Positions 49,257-56,169 of a stretch of 64,000 nt of DNA are shown here, in pieces. The stretch spans positions 1-64,000 of the forward strand of contig JBCCCR010000028.1 of assembly GCA_039033415.1 (NCBI GenBank). The letters are read 5' to 3'. Position 1 is the first letter of the stretch. Each line of letters starts with the position of its first letter. The DNA comes from Pseudomonadota bacterium. Lineage in GTDB: Bacteria; Pseudomonadota; Gammaproteobacteria; Xanthomonadales; SZUA-38. A model generated the notes under the pieces. The model was not told where the DNA came from. It ran no database searches and was given only the letters and a program-made list of their open reading frames with translations. The position numbers and the translations under genes were made by a program.

Positions 49257-51428
49257 TCAGTTGAACGTTTTGCGAAGCGCCAGGATAGCGCCTCTGCCGG
49301 GCGCGTCGATACCCGATCCATGCTCTCGGTAGCTGCGATCCGCAAGATTATGCAGCGTTAAATCAACCGACCAGTCGTCTGACGGTAACCATCCAGCTCG
49401 CAGGTCGATCACCCCCCAGCCCGGCGTGCCGTCGGGGTTAATCCGCGGGTCAGAACGGTCTCGATCGCTCAGGCGGTCCTGCCGTCGGGCGAAGCGTCCA
49501 AGAATGCTCAGTTTCCAGGGAGCGGCCGGCTGCCAGCTCAGGCTCGCCTCGCCGTTAAACGGCGGTATGCGATCAGCGGGTCGGTCGGGGCCGCCGGCCC
49601 CATCCTCCACGCCTCGGATGCTGTTGAGCGTCAGCGAGCCGGAAACCTCCGGGTTAAACTGATAAGCCAGAGCCAGTTCAAGGCCGCGCAACCGGACCCG
49701 ACCAACGTTGTCGCTGCGCACGACCTGGCGTCCGCTGGGCGTTACCTCGCCGGTAAACACGGACGTGATCTGGTCCTCGTAGTCCAGCTCAAACGCCACC
49801 AGCTCTCCCCGCCAGGATGGGCTGCGCCATTTGATGCCAAGATCGAAACTGAGCACCCGCTCCGGCCCCAGCCCCGGATTGGCGACGTTGAATCGATTTC
49901 CGGGTCGCGGACCGAGCGTGCCGAGATCAAAAATGTTGGGTACGCGGAACCCTTCCCCGATGTTCGCCACCAGGTTGACCCGATCGGTTAACGCCCAGCG
50001 CGCCGCCATACTGGCGGTGAACTCATCGAGATCGAGCTCCGCACCCAGCGGACGATCCGCCGCCGCCAAATCGATGGCAAAGCGGGAATAGCGCACGCCG
50101 GCCTCGAGATGGAAGCGCTCGCTCACCGCGCTTTCCAGATGCACGTACAGCGCGGAGTTGCGCAACCGGGAACCGTCGGGGAAGCGAGCGATGGTCGGCA
50201 CTCGCTCTCCGCTGTCGAGCGCTTCCAGCTGCCGGGCACTGCTGACCCGATCGTCATAAAACTCAAAGCCGTAAACCAGATCCGTCAAGACTCCCAGGGG
50301 GCGCTCGAATTGACCGCTGAATCCGTAAAGGTCGCTGCGATTCTGCTCGATGGTTCGGACATCCTCAGCAAAATCCCGCGACCGGCGGTCGTCGGTGATG
50401 CGCTGGGCCGACAGATGAAGCTCGTAGGCGCTGTACAAAAGCCCGTCGCTGGAACCGGTCAGCCTCAGGTGGGCAAAGCTTCGCCGGTTGGGCTCAAAGA
50501 AGAATTCGCTTGAGGCCGGTTGGGTTTCGCCAAAGCCGGGCACCAGCTCGTCGACCCGGGGAGTCGACGGCTGCTCCAGATGCTGAAGGTCCAGCTGAAG
50601 CTCGCTGGCGCCGCTGATCCGTTGGCGCCAGCTCACGGCCCCCGACCGGGCCTCATAGCCCGATGGCGCGACGACTCCGCTCGCGGTGCGCCGATTGCCA
50701 ACATCCTGGCTGCTTAGCCTCACCTGCCAGGCGCTGTCGTCATCCCCACCCGAGGCAAAGCCGCTCACCGTCAGCAGGTCATCGACGCTGCCGGCGATCA
50801 GATCCATGCCGCCCTGCAGCGCCGAGTCGAACTCGGGTCGGGCGGTGAGGAAGTGCACAACCCCGCCCATCGCATCGGCGCCGTAAAGTGTCGAGGCCGA
50901 GCCTCTAACCACCTCGGTGCTCGACACCTGCAGCGGATCGATCAGCGCGAGATACTGATTGGGCGCGTTGCGAAAAAGCGCGTTGTTCAACCTGACACCG
51001 TCAACCAGATGCAGCACCTCGGAACCCTTCAGGCCCCGGACGATCGCATTGCCCTGCCCGGGCGTGGTTTGCTGGACAAACACCCCGGCCTGCCCGCGAA
51101 GTGCGTCCGCGATCACCTTCGGCTGGCTCGCACGAAGCAGCTCGTCCGAAACCACGGTCACCGGCTGCGAAGTATCAAATACGCTCGCAGCGCGGCGTCG
51201 GGCCGTGACCTGTATCACCTCCAGCGGCAGCGCCGGCGTGTTGCTTGCGTCCTGCTCCTGACGCTCCGAAACTTCCGCTGCCGCTGCGCCGGTTGACGGG
51301 CTCGCCTGGTCCTGAGCCTGCAGCTGACCCACTGCTGCAGCCAGCGCCAAGCCCAGGGTTGCTATCACCCAACGGGGTGCCAAACGCATGAATCGGTCGC
51401 AGCCTGGCAGGTGACGAAAAACATCCAT
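49257..51428 (-). CDS. TonB-dependent outer membrane receptor
   Basis: A 723-residue receptor with signal peptide (best cut after VGQLQAQ), TonB box LEVIQVTAR and a plug domain (ALRGQAGVFVQQTTPGQGNA, LDGV-like LVDGVRLNNALF). A 22-strand barrel follows and ends in RGAILALRKTFN with a terminal aromatic residue. The plug resembles haem/hemin and siderophore receptors, but the ligand cannot be fixed. A start at ATG 51389 would begin directly with the signal peptide and is an alternative to 51428. No riboswitch or Fur box was found in the 156 bp upstream. Confidence 0.92.
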   Translation of the reverse strand: MDVFRHLPGCDRFMRLAPRWVIATLGLALAAAVGQLQAQDQASPSTGAAAAEVSERQEQDASNTPALPLEVIQVTARRRAASVFDTSQPVTVVSDELLRASQPKVIADALRGQAGVFVQQTTPGQGNAIVRGLKGSEVLHLVDGVRLNNALFRNAPNQYLALIDPLQVSSTEVVRGSASTLYGADAMGGVVHFLTARPEFDSALQGGMDLIAGSVDDLLTVSGFASGGDDDSAWQVRLSSQDVGNRRTASGVVAPSGYEARSGAVSWRQRISGASELQLDLQHLEQPSTPRVDELVPGFGETQPASSEFFFEPNRRSFAHLRLTGSSDGLLYSAYELHLSAQRITDDRRSRDFAEDVRTIEQNRSDLYGFSGQFERPLGVLTDLVYGFEFYDDRVSSARQLEALDSGERVPTIARFPDGSRLRNSALYVHLESAVSERFHLEAGVRYSRFAIDLAAADRPLGAELDLDEFTASMAARWALTDRVNLVANIGEGFRVPNIFDLGTLGPRPGNRFNVANPGLGPERVLSFDLGIKWRSPSWRGELVAFELDYEDQITSVFTGEVTPSGRQVVRSDNVGRVRLRGLELALAYQFNPEVSGSLTLNSIRGVEDGAGGPDRPADRIPPFNGEASLSWQPAAPWKLSILGRFARRQDRLSDRDRSDPRINPDGTPGWGVIDLRAGWLPSDDWSVDLTLHNLADRSYREHGSGIDAPGRGAILALRKTFN

Positions 51429-51584
51429 GTCGTCCGGCCTATTGATCTACGAAAAGAGACGTATTAAGTTTGCCCTGCAGGTGGCCGGTGTCCCAACTGC
51501 CACCTGTCTTCCCCGTGCCAAGGGCACATGGACGTGCCTGTTTTTTTGCACCCTCGTTCGTCGTCGACACAGCTGAACCATCCT

Positions 51585-51959
51585 TCACAGAGCTGCCAGA
51601 ACAAACAGTCCGATCATCGACCCGTAAGCTCCCAGCCAGACCGCCGACCGCGTGCTGGGCCAGTCCGCCACGTAGGCTGCGCCGTGCGCCAGCCGAAAGA
51701 CGATAAAAAGCACCGCCAGTCGATCCATCCACTGCGGGTCGGCGCCGGCGAGATGAGCGATGATCACGGCGGCGGCAAATCCCGGCAATGCCTCGAACGC
51801 ATTGAGCTGTGCCCAGTGAGCTCGCTGACGAAAGCCGCTGCTCTCCGCCAGGTAGACCCGGGGCTGACGGTTGTCGTAACGGCCGCTGTATTTGGCGAAT
51901 CCCGTCCAGAACAGGGGCATGATGGTAGCGATCAGGACGCACCAGAAGGCGATGGACAT
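51585..51959 (-). CDS. MAPEG-family membrane protein
   Basis: A 124-residue protein with four hydrophobic helices and the MAPEG (eicosanoid and glutathione metabolism) pattern. It contains QRAHWAQLNAFEALPGFAAA with conserved Arg, Asn and Glu-Ala, then FRLAHGAAYVADWPSTRSAV. Bacterial members are glutathione-associated membrane proteins of unclear role. It lies between the TonB receptor and the thiamine operon, on the minus strand. Confidence 0.85.
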   Translation of the reverse strand: MSIAFWCVLIATIMPLFWTGFAKYSGRYDNRQPRVYLAESSGFRQRAHWAQLNAFEALPGFAAAVIIAHLAGADPQWMDRLAVLFIVFRLAHGAAYVADWPSTRSAVWLGAYGSMIGLFVLAAL

Positions 51960-52063: not shown

Positions 52064-52894
52064 TCAGGCCAGCACAAGCCGGAGCTGGCGTAGGCGGGAC
52101 TCGCCGCCGGCCACCTCGTAGCCCTGATCCAACCGCGCCTCCAGCCAAAAGAACTCCAGCAGCCGCACGAGCCGCAGCGCGAGCGCCAGCAGCTTGCGGG
52201 TGTAGGGATCTGCTCCGCCGAAATAGGCCGCCAGCAGCGGAAGCTGCTGATCGGGCGTCAGATCATGCTGCTGCACCAGCCAGGCGAGGTCCAGCATCGG
52301 GTTGGCCCGGCAGGCGTACTCAAAATCGACAAAACGGACGGGGTTTCGGCCGAGCAGCTGACCAAGGTGGAGGTCGCCGTGGCACAGCGCGTGCTGGTCG
52401 ACAATCAGGCTGCTCACCCGCAGCTCAGCGGCCAGATCACTCACCTCACGCCTGAGGGTCGCTTCCTCCTTCGACGGGCTGAACGCGAGCAGCTCGGGGA
52501 GCCGGTCGGCCCAGTTGGTTGCCGCCAGCCCCTCGACGTCGAGGCGATGGAGCTCGCGCAAACGGCGAGCCAGCTGGTCCAGCGCGTCAGCATCTTCGAG
52601 CTGAGCGAGATTCCATTCAGGCCCAGCAAGCCAGCGAGTGATCAGGTAGGCATCACAACAAGCCACGGGCTCCGGGGCGAGGTCGGCGGCCGCCGCCCGC
52701 CGCAGCGCCAGGCACTCCTGCGAACGCGCTACCCCCGCGCCAGCCGCGTTGCGCCGCACAACCCACACACCCGCCGCGGACGCCACCCGCCAGGAACGAT
52801 TGATTGACCCATGGCGCAGCGCTGAAATCTGGACCGGCCCGACGGCTGACACCTCTTTCAGCCCCGCAACCCAAGCGTGGTTCTCCTCAGTCAT
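52064..52894 (-). CDS. Aminoglycoside phosphotransferase-fold kinase, probable thiamine kinase
   Basis: A 276-residue small-molecule kinase with the APH/choline-kinase fold. The Brenner motif ALCHGDLHLGQLL provides the catalytic Asp, and VRFVDFEYACRANPMLDLAW the metal-binding Asp. The N-terminal SALRHGSINRSWRV resembles the choline/thiamine kinase loop. Because it is the last gene of the unit that begins with a TPP riboswitch, and sits after pnuC/pnuT, thiamine kinase (ThiK) is the best guess. Nine bases separate it from the transporter gene. Confidence 0.8.
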   Translation of the reverse strand: MTEENHAWVAGLKEVSAVGPVQISALRHGSINRSWRVASAAGVWVVRRNAAGAGVARSQECLALRRAAAADLAPEPVACCDAYLITRWLAGPEWNLAQLEDADALDQLARRLRELHRLDVEGLAATNWADRLPELLAFSPSKEEATLRREVSDLAAELRVSSLIVDQHALCHGDLHLGQLLGRNPVRFVDFEYACRANPMLDLAWLVQQHDLTPDQQLPLLAAYFGGADPYTRKLLALALRLVRLLEFFWLEARLDQGYEVAGGESRLRQLRLVLA

Positions 52895-52903
52895 AGCTTT
52901 GGC

Positions 52904-53488
52904 TCACGTGGGCGCCGCCAGCGCCGCTTTTGAGCCCCGCACCATCGCGCGGCGCCAGCTGAAAAACCCCGCCACGCAGATCCCGAGGTAGAGCGCGAAC
53001 AACCCGGCCGTCAAGGTCAGACCTTTGGCCAGGTAGAGGTAGATCGACACCGAGTCGACCACCAGCCAGTACAACCAGTTTTCGAGCACTTTACGCGTGA
53101 CCATAAAGGTGGTCACCACCGCGTAACACGTTGTGGCGGCGTCCAGGTAGGCGTATTCAGCACCCGCCGCGGACGTGAGGCGGGCCAGCAGCGGGACGCA
53201 CAGCGCCGTGCCTAGAATCACCGCCACGTGGCGGCGCCAGCTCCAGCGGTGAATCTCGCGCCGCTCGACGCCGCCACCCCCGCGCCACTGCCACCATCCG
53301 TAGACCGCCATCACCAGATAGAAGATATTGAGCAGCGATTCAGACAGCAGCGCCACCGTGTAAAACAGCCCGATATAGATGGCGGTGCTGATAAAAGCAC
53401 ACACCCAGCACCAGCTGTTTTCCCGAGCTGCCAGCAGGAGGTAGGCGATCGCCAGCACCACGGCGATGGCTTCGAGCAGCTGAAACAT
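52904..53488 (-). CDS. pnuT: PnuC/PnuT-family vitamin transporter
   Basis: A 194-residue protein with about seven transmembrane helices. It has the PnuC-family motif YGWWQWRGG and the later KVLENWLYWLVVDSVSIYLY block. PnuC family members move nicotinamide riboside, riboflavin or thiamine by facilitated diffusion, trapping the vitamin by phosphorylation. The TPP riboswitch and a kinase neighbour point to thiamine (PnuT). It starts 2 bp after the YkoF-like gene, so translation is coupled. Confidence 0.85.
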   Translation of the reverse strand: MFQLLEAIAVVLAIAYLLLAARENSWCWVCAFISTAIYIGLFYTVALLSESLLNIFYLVMAVYGWWQWRGGGGVERREIHRWSWRRHVAVILGTALCVPLLARLTSAAGAEYAYLDAATTCYAVVTTFMVTRKVLENWLYWLVVDSVSIYLYLAKGLTLTAGLFALYLGICVAGFFSWRRAMVRGSKAALAAPT

Positions 53489-53490
53489 GC

Positions 53491-53757
53491 TCAGTCGGTG
53501 GGAGAACCGGTCAGCAGATTGCCATTGAGCACTTTCATCACAAAACTCGCTTTAGGCACGTCGGCGTGGGTTTTTTGCATTTCCGCAGCCAGAATCTCCA
53601 GCGTCCGGCCGTAAGGGCCGAAGACCTGCGTGCTCATGCAGTTGGTCTGCACCGTCAGCTCCGGATACTGATTGAGCCGATCGATGAAATCGGCGATCGG
53701 CGTCACAAACTGCTCGGTCAGGGGATAAAGGCTAATCTCAACAGAAACCTGGCTCAT
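53491..53757 (-). CDS. YkoF/MTH1187-like thiamine-binding protein
   Basis: An 88-residue ferredoxin-like protein of the YkoF/MTH1187 group: VSVEISLYPLTEQFVTPIAD, VQTNCMSTQVFGPYG and EMQKTHADVPKASFVMKVLN. Bacillus YkoF binds thiamine and hydroxymethylpyrimidine. The ATG has GGAG 5 nt upstream. It lies between the TonB receptor and the PnuC/PnuT gene, fitting a vitamin-salvage role. Confidence 0.85.
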   Translation of the reverse strand: MSQVSVEISLYPLTEQFVTPIADFIDRLNQYPELTVQTNCMSTQVFGPYGRTLEILAAEMQKTHADVPKASFVMKVLNGNLLTGSPTD

Positions 53758-53804
53758 CGGTGCTCCTTTGCCGGCATTGTTCCTCGGGGAAGTCGACCTG
53801 TGTT

Positions 53805-55892
53805 TTACATGCGCCAGGTTGCGGTGAGGCCAAAGACCGCCGGATCACCGAGCTGCGTGTAGAGCCGATCGGGAAAATCCGGCGGCTCCAGGCCAAAGAA
53901 AAAGCCCCGGGTCGCGAACTCTTCGTCGGTCACGTTGCGCCCCCACAGCTCAACCGACCAGCGGTCGGAAGCATAGCCCAGATTAACGTTGACCAGCTCA
54001 TACGGCTGCGACCGCTGATCGTGCGAATCAGAGAAAAAGAAGTCGTCGCGACCGGTGACCTCAAATCGTGCGTAGTATCCCTGCTCAGACTCCCAGTTCA
54101 GACCGAGCGCAAACTGATAGCCCGGAGCATGGGCCTGATCACGACCGTCGAGGGTCCGCTGTGGCGACTGAAAGTCTTCGAAGCGGGTGTCCAGCAGCCC
54201 GAGCGCCAGATCTGCCCGCCACCGATCATTGATGCGGTATTCGCCTTCCAGCTCCAGCCCCATGTTCCGGCCGCTGGAAGCGTTGTCGGTGAAAAAGACA
54301 AACGTCAGCGGATCGGTCGGATCAGCCTGGAACGACGTTCCGACCTGCATGTCGTCACGACGCGCGACAAACACCGACAGGCTGCCGCGCGCCCGACCGT
54401 CCAGCCAGCGACCGCGGATGCCCGCCTCCAGGTTCCACAGGTACTCCGGCTCAAACTCCCGGCGCCCCTCCGGCACCGACAGCCCCAGATTAAACCCACC
54501 GGCCTTGTAGCCGCGGGCCAGGGTCACATAGCTGCTGCTGGCATCTGACAGCTGACGAACCCACGACAGCTGACCGCCGACCATGGTGTCGTCAGGGCTA
54601 GCGCTGACGCCGCCCGTATCGCTGTAGTCTGCGCTGCGCTGCTCCAGCCGCAGCCCCAGCGTCAGCGTATCGCGCTCGCTGAGGTCTTGGTCCAACTCGC
54701 CAAACAGCGCAATCGACGTCGACTCAAAGCTGCTGGACAGGTCGCGAAAAACCTCGTCGTTAAAGAAATCGTTGAAGCGGTTGTCTTCATCCAGGTCCAG
54801 CAGATAGACGCCGCCGACCCAGCGGCGGGGGCCTGCGCCCGTGGAGGCCAGGCGAAACTCCTGGCTGAACGTCTGGCGATCGCGCAGCGTGGCCGACGTA
54901 AAGTCGTAGGGCGCAAACTCACCCCAGTAGCGGTCGTTGCCCCAGTCGCCGTCAAAGGTATACACGATGTCAGAGTCGGCGACGCTGGTGATCGACGTGA
55001 AGTCCATCTGCGAACCGCGGTAGACGGCGCGCAGCGCCCCTCCCAGCGAGCGCTGGGCGTCGCGCCCTGGATCATCGCTGTGAACAACAAAGGTGTTTTC
55101 GGGCGCAAAAGCGTCAAAGCCGTTGTCGATGTCCGCCAGCAGCAGCGTCAGATCGAGCGACAGCCGATCGCTGGGCAGCCACCGCAGTCGCACCCGGGCG
55201 CTCAGCTCATCACGTCGGTTGGTATCGTCCGCCGGAAAGAAATCGTTGTCCCGGAAGCCGTTGTTCTCGAACTGCTCGACCGCCACTCGCCAGGCCGCGG
55301 TATTGCCCTCGTTGAGGGCACCGCCGGCGGACACGCCCAGCCCCAGCGTGCCTTCGGTGCCACCGGTGGCCCGCACGTCCAAGTGCGGGTCGAACGACGG
55401 CGCGGCGGTCTGCACGTAAATCAGGCCAGCGAGCGCGTTCGCCCCGTAGCGGGTCCCCTGAGGTCCGCGTAACACCTCAACCCGCTCGGTGTCGAACAGC
55501 GTGCCCACCAGCCCCAGGCCGGAGAAGTCGATGTCGTCGACCACAAAACCGACGGACGGGTTGGGCGCACCCTCGTACTGGCTGCGCTCGCCGATCCCGC
55601 GTAGCTGAAAGAAACGAGGGCGGTTCGACGCCGAAGACCAGTTCAGGTTCGGCACGCGGTCCATCACCTCCTGGAAATGCTGCACGCCGCCCGCCTTCAG
55701 CTGATCGTCGAGCACCGTGACGGAAACCGGCACATCGAGCAACGACTGAGACTCGCGCAGCGAGGCGGTCACGACGATCTCTTCGAGCTCCTGTGCCCCC
55801 AGCGGGGCCAGGCCGATCGACCCCGGACCGAGGACAAGACAAAAGGCGGCGGCCACCAGGCGGTGGACTTGGGTGGAACGGTACGGTCGCAT
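53805..55892 (-). CDS. TonB-dependent receptor, probable thiamine importer
   Basis: A 695-residue outer membrane receptor. Start chosen at the ATG at 55892 because AAGGAG lies 6 nt upstream and a signal peptide follows (MRPYRSTQVHRLVAAAFCLV..LGAQ). The TonB-box region reads ELEEIVVTASLRESQSLLDV, then the plug, then a barrel ending GDPAVFGLTATWRM. The TPP riboswitch about 90 nt upstream and downstream thiamine genes imply that the ligand is thiamine or its phosphates/precursors. The next gene starts 47 bp after its stop. Confidence 0.9.
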   Translation of the reverse strand: MRPYRSTQVHRLVAAAFCLVLGPGSIGLAPLGAQELEEIVVTASLRESQSLLDVPVSVTVLDDQLKAGGVQHFQEVMDRVPNLNWSSASNRPRFFQLRGIGERSQYEGAPNPSVGFVVDDIDFSGLGLVGTLFDTERVEVLRGPQGTRYGANALAGLIYVQTAAPSFDPHLDVRATGGTEGTLGLGVSAGGALNEGNTAAWRVAVEQFENNGFRDNDFFPADDTNRRDELSARVRLRWLPSDRLSLDLTLLLADIDNGFDAFAPENTFVVHSDDPGRDAQRSLGGALRAVYRGSQMDFTSITSVADSDIVYTFDGDWGNDRYWGEFAPYDFTSATLRDRQTFSQEFRLASTGAGPRRWVGGVYLLDLDEDNRFNDFFNDEVFRDLSSSFESTSIALFGELDQDLSERDTLTLGLRLEQRSADYSDTGGVSASPDDTMVGGQLSWVRQLSDASSSYVTLARGYKAGGFNLGLSVPEGRREFEPEYLWNLEAGIRGRWLDGRARGSLSVFVARRDDMQVGTSFQADPTDPLTFVFFTDNASSGRNMGLELEGEYRINDRWRADLALGLLDTRFEDFQSPQRTLDGRDQAHAPGYQFALGLNWESEQGYYARFEVTGRDDFFFSDSHDQRSQPYELVNVNLGYASDRWSVELWGRNVTDEEFATRGFFFGLEPPDFPDRLYTQLGDPAVFGLTATWRM

Positions 55893-55978
55893 CAGACACT
55901 CCTTGAATATCTGCCGGACTGCCAACATGCGACAGCCCGGCTGCGGCCGGTTATACGGAGGCGGGGAAAACAGGCGAG

Positions 55979-56108
55979 CCCATTCCTACGCCGGCACTAA
56001 CCGGTTCAGGTTCTAAGGGTTCGCGCGTGCGCATCTCAGGCTGCCGTCGCGCTGCGCGGAGGGCCTCAAAGGCATTCACGCAGCGGAGCGGTCTCGCCAC
56101 CCCTTGGG
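55979..56108 (-). promoter_or_regulatory. TPP riboswitch (THI element)
   Basis: The minus strand contains the conserved TPP aptamer core: CAAGGGGTGG (P1/P2 5' side) and CTGAGATGCGC, with a long P3 insertion between. Then come ACCCTTAGAACCTGA and ACCGGTTAGTGCCGGCG (P4/P5), and finally TAGGAATGGG. AAGGGT pairs with ACCCTT (P2) and CCCA with TGGG (P1). About 85 nt of expression platform with a CCGGC/GCCGG hairpin separates it from the receptor ATG. Thiamine pyrophosphate should turn the operon off. Confidence 0.93.
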
Positions 56109-56169
56109 AAACGAGCGTTAACGATAAAGGTTTTGACGGAGAAGGTCGATCCCCGGCTGGGCGCAGCGC

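Follow-up and report, generated by a model that had tools for sequence, protein, structure and literature searches.

In Bacteroides thetaiotaomicron, OMthi and PnuT-Tnr3 are placed under TPP riboswitches, and the deletions of OMthi and PnuT support their participation in thiamine uptake (PMC5613172). In marine bacteria, the omr1 receptor gene is reported to adjoin TPP riboswitches, in a paper in which ykoF is also given as a B1/HMP-binding protein (PMC10881298), and the omr1 receptor is expressed by marine gammaproteobacteria (PMC12442306).

The operon analyzed here lies on the minus strand at 52064-56114 of the window (the whole 64,000-nucleotide stretch of DNA that was analyzed), and consists of a riboswitch with four closely packed genes downstream of it (Table 1). 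It has in common with the B. thetaiotaomicron OMthi/PnuT-Tnr3 system a TPP-riboswitch-controlled TonB receptor, a PnuT carrier, and a thiamine-phosphorylating enzyme, whereas it differs in that an APH-fold kinase and ThiL take the place of Tnr3, a YkoF-like gene is added, and the genome lacks thiamine biosynthesis. In the literature, no description of this exact gene set (receptor, YkoF-like protein, PnuT, and APH kinase) was found. The operon is another member of the known thiamine-uptake kind that additionally carries a YkoF-like gene and a kinase of the APH fold.

We consider it highly likely that the locus is a TPP-repressed operon for thiamine uptake and trapping, in a marine gammaproteobacterium that is probably unable to make thiamine. 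This reading rests on the aptamer, the gene content, the conserved order, the receptor clade, the YkoF fold, the missing biosynthesis genes, and ThiL. At low TPP concentrations, the leader would permit expression of the operon; the TonB receptor would then carry thiamine over the outer membrane, the PnuT-like carrier would serve for the inner membrane crossing, and cytoplasmic thiamine would be held by the YkoF-like protein and converted to TMP by the APH-fold kinase, so that it is trapped. ThiL, encoded elsewhere, would make TPP, and, when TPP is plentiful, the aptamer would be bound and expression would fall, most likely with the ribosome binding site hidden. In this scheme, we infer thiamine as the substrate of the receptor, carrier, and kinase, as well as the translational mode of switching and the role of the binder.

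Table 1. Features of the operon and its leader in the window
Feature	Position	Strand	Basis and remarks
TPP riboswitch aptamer (RF00059)	55966-56114	(-)	Rfam; P3 arm enlarged
UAACCGG linker element, candidate anti-sequestor	55947-55953	(-)	Fold prediction
Putative Shine-Dalgarno AAGGAGUG	55897-55904	(-)	Sequence and folds; inside predicted hairpin
TonB-dependent outer membrane receptor, OMR1/OMthi-like clade	53805-55892	(-)	Pfam PF00593 and PF07715; tree
Single-domain YkoF/MTH1187-fold protein, 88 aa	53491-53757	(-)	Pfam sub-threshold; AlphaFold; Foldseek
Inner membrane carrier of the PnuC family, putative PnuT	52904-53488	(-)	PF04973, 3e-49
APH/choline-kinase-fold kinase	52064-52894	(-)	PF01636, 8e-19

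Aptamer and conserved gene order

The covariance model RF00059 matched the window aptamer over its full length (positions 1-105), with 63.9 bits (gathering score, 54.3 bits; E 3e-10). The fold of the aptamer was therefore retained above the threshold, and the TPP aptamer that the initial annotation had placed at the head of the operon is a TPP riboswitch, for which TPP binding and switching of expression are predicted.

A scan of genome contigs yielded 80 loci, or 81 with the window. The YkoF-like gene was followed by the PnuC gene in 80 of the 81 loci, the contig ending first in the other one, and the kinase was also present in 71, a receptor lay upstream in 57, and a TPP motif or Rfam match preceded the receptor in 47. 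This recurrence in tens of genomes indicates that the gene order of the operon is not due to chance. The hosts of the YkoF-PnuT(-kinase) core include Marinicella, Microbulbifer, Pseudoalteromonas, Arsukibacterium, Rheinheimera, and Thalassolituus; no study of the binder or the kinase of this conserved cassette was found in the literature. The nearest named record is the Lysobacterales MAG IP29b_bin.149, in which the small protein is 84% identical.

In Pseudoalteromonas, the core is often seen without a TPP switch or a receptor nearby, so that control there must differ. Behind the operon, the window encodes a MAPEG-family protein and a TonB receptor of the heme type (49257-51959, minus strand), a pair that also comes after the operon in a same-genus genome and in a further member of the family. 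A 16S rRNA gene is cut by the start of the contig (window 1-475, minus strand; first 476 bases of the gene).

Receptor, YkoF-like protein, carrier, and kinase

The initial annotation had named a TonB receptor, a PnuC/PnuT carrier, and an APH-fold kinase behind the aptamer, and the Pfam matches in Table 1 bear out each of these families. For the receptor, both the plug and the barrel domains are present. The receptors linked to a riboswitch or to the operon (beside YkoF), 34 sequences in which two genomes appear twice or more via different loci, formed one clade with a support of 1.0, in a tree in which no characterized OMthi sequence was among those placed. All 29 receptor-homologue loci that had been sampled in the window's genome fell outside this clade. 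These results suggest that the window receptor is likely a thiamine receptor, as judged from its sequence relationships. TonB receptor homologues are unusually numerous in the window's 6.4 Mb genome, with 84 matching stretches (dozens of receptors).

The receptor likely starts at 55892 and not at the longer ATG at 55928, since a GGAG stands six bases upstream of the former and a signal-peptide-like N-terminus comes after it. The ATG at 55928 is within a predicted hairpin loop.

For the 88-aa protein, the Pfam scores were below gathering (Ykof, 19.4 vs 21 bits; Thiamine_BP, 17.5 vs 24.9), and the sequence search against solved structures (PDB) gave chance matches only. However, the AlphaFold model, built from 32 relatives (pLDDT 88.9), matched MJ1052, SP2199, and TM0486 in Foldseek with E values of 1e-6 to 2e-5; the YkoF structures with thiamin (1sbr, TM 0.64) and without it (1s99) were matched at lower ranks. 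The YkoF/Thiamine_BP fold of the predicted structure, and with it the YkoF label of the initial annotation, is thus confirmed. The ferredoxin-like fold is common to the window protein, B. subtilis YkoF (ykoFEDC), and the MTH1187/TM0486 (Thiamine_BP) family, whereas the window protein is a single domain encoded with PnuT and YkoF is a tandem pair encoded with an ECF-type transporter. Residues E7, Y11-P12-L13, N39, S42-T43-Q44, G47, and K75 were invariant in 81 homologues.

No signal peptide was visible at the N-terminus of the 88-aa protein, which starts directly in the first beta strand, and the protein is therefore most likely cytoplasmic. Of the two sites for binding that had been considered at first, the periplasm and the cytoplasm, the latter is the more likely. 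The protein likely binds thiamine or HMP. The single-domain YkoF gene adjoins the PnuT gene in essentially every locus, and it is conceivable, as a tentative proposal that we would not favor at present, that the protein is a working partner of PnuT, taking thiamine from the passive carrier and passing it on to the kinase; no description of such a transport-coupled vitamin chaperone for PnuT systems was found in the literature.

YkoF-superfamily proteins are able to bind the pyrimidine moiety, which, together with the B1/HMP-binding role given to ykoF, would fit a system whose main salvage substrates are precursors or breakdown products of thiamine (HMP, for example) and not intact thiamine. 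We regard this as improbable, because the joining of HMP with the thiazole would not be possible in a genome without ThiE, ThiG, and a full-length ThiD match.

For the carrier, the score against TIGR01528 (63.2 bits) is over the PnuC equivalog cut-off, and the carrier matched the PnuC structure 4qtn in phmmer; these PnuC models do not distinguish thiamine from nicotinamide riboside. The cut-off would be in line with a PnuC-type carrier and a kinase that serve nicotinamide riboside or another metabolite, with only the receptor acting on thiamine. This is, however, very improbable, since the YkoF-like gene, the carrier, and the kinase stand together behind the TPP switch and the receptor in most loci, and since several relatives retain the switch, the receptor, and PnuT without the remaining genes. 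From this gene context, we infer that the carrier moves thiamine, in the role of PnuT.

The kinase has the APH fold and the HxD catalytic motif in common with E. coli ThiK (YcfN). It matched the ThiK model TIGR02721 with an E value of 7e-19, yet its 68 bits are well below the family cut-off of 299 bits. H172, D174, and D190 (HxD and D190) were invariant across 71 homologues. Gln179 (HGDLHLGQ) takes the place of the Asn in HxDxxxxN, a change shared by the window and its sister genome alone, and two others have His at this site, whereas nearly all of the kinase relatives retain the usual Asn. The kinase with Gln179 may still work, and this is the weakest link of the operon reading. The kinase is a probable thiamine kinase. 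Four further strong APH-fold matches were found in the window's genome, so that another kinase could perform the thiamine phosphorylation step.

Thiamine biosynthesis genes

In family searches of the window's genome, a draft of 62 contigs estimated to be 98.7% complete (1.3% short), ThiC, ThiG, ThiE, and thiamine pyrophosphokinase (TPK) were not found, and the ThiD family gave a weak, partial match and no full-length one. The same searches matched ThiC in 13, ThiG in 14, ThiE in 11, TPK in 7, and ThiD in 14 of 14 control genomes. A ThiL gene lies elsewhere in the genome (315 bits). Since ThiC, ThiG, ThiE, and TPK are absent and ThiL is kept, thiamine would be converted to TMP by the operon kinase and then to TPP by ThiL, which is the sole route that could be reconstructed from the predicted genes.

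The reliance on external thiamine that the initial annotation had raised as a possibility gained support from these searches, and a predicted thiamine auxotrophy of the organism, which rests on the absent genes, is well supported. That the organism is instead a prototroph whose biosynthesis genes were lost in the gaps of the draft is extremely unlikely, as three separate biosynthesis genes are missing in spite of the estimated completeness, ThiC is absent in all four family genomes searched (the window's included), and the TPP riboswitch of the operon is the only one detected genome-wide in the Rfam search. The missing genes would provide a genetic basis for thiamine dependence in large-genome uncultured gammaproteobacteria near Lysobacterales and Marinicella.

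Within the order, 16 of 41 genomes (the window's included) were without ThiC, and in 14 of these 16, again including the window's, a homologue of the window receptor stood immediately behind a TPP switch; as these genomes are related, the counts cannot be treated as independent. Those of the 14 genomes' receptors that were tested all grouped in one clade. In one of the other two genomes, a PnuC-domain protein comes after the switch, and the second lacks a switch. A TPP switch precedes a 507-aa open frame with a PnuC domain at its end in a ThiC-less genome (2062-3582 of the locus, plus strand). In the fetched switch loci of genomes with ThiC, no homologous receptor was close by, and the switch was mostly approximately 500-650 bases upstream of ThiC.

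The idea that the operon by itself indicates auxotrophy was rejected. Among the 50 other operon genomes tested, ThiC was present in 37 and absent in 13, the Marinicella (M. litoralis included) being among the latter, suggesting that likely prototrophs use the operon too.

Leader and mode of switching

No terminator-like site was found between the window aptamer and the start codon, and control by a transcriptional terminator was rejected on this basis. In the window fold, the UAACCGG linker element is complementary to CCGGUUA of the aptamer P5 (55998-56004). The CCGG core of the element is invariant across four family members, and the linker/P5 architecture is the same in relatives.

In many relatives, the linker resembles AACCGGGTCTC...GAGATCC-ATG, in which the first part is predicted to pair with the aptamer GATCCGGTT and the second part with the bases immediately preceding the start codon. 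Two-way pairing of this kind corresponds to the arrangement of a translational switch, and suggests such control in the relatives. The support from compensatory changes was modest, with 89 of 98 cells paired as compared to a mean of 84 with permuted partners, and 30 of 5000 permutations reaching 89, in a test for which the arms had been chosen for pairing and the relatedness of the genomes was uncorrected. The automatic hairpin picker gave a poor hairpin for the window, and its choice was not used there.

In constrained folding of the window with P5 forced, the predicted exposure of the Shine-Dalgarno sequence was unchanged. Translational switching would nevertheless be the presumed mode in the window, where the ribosome binding site is in a predicted hairpin.
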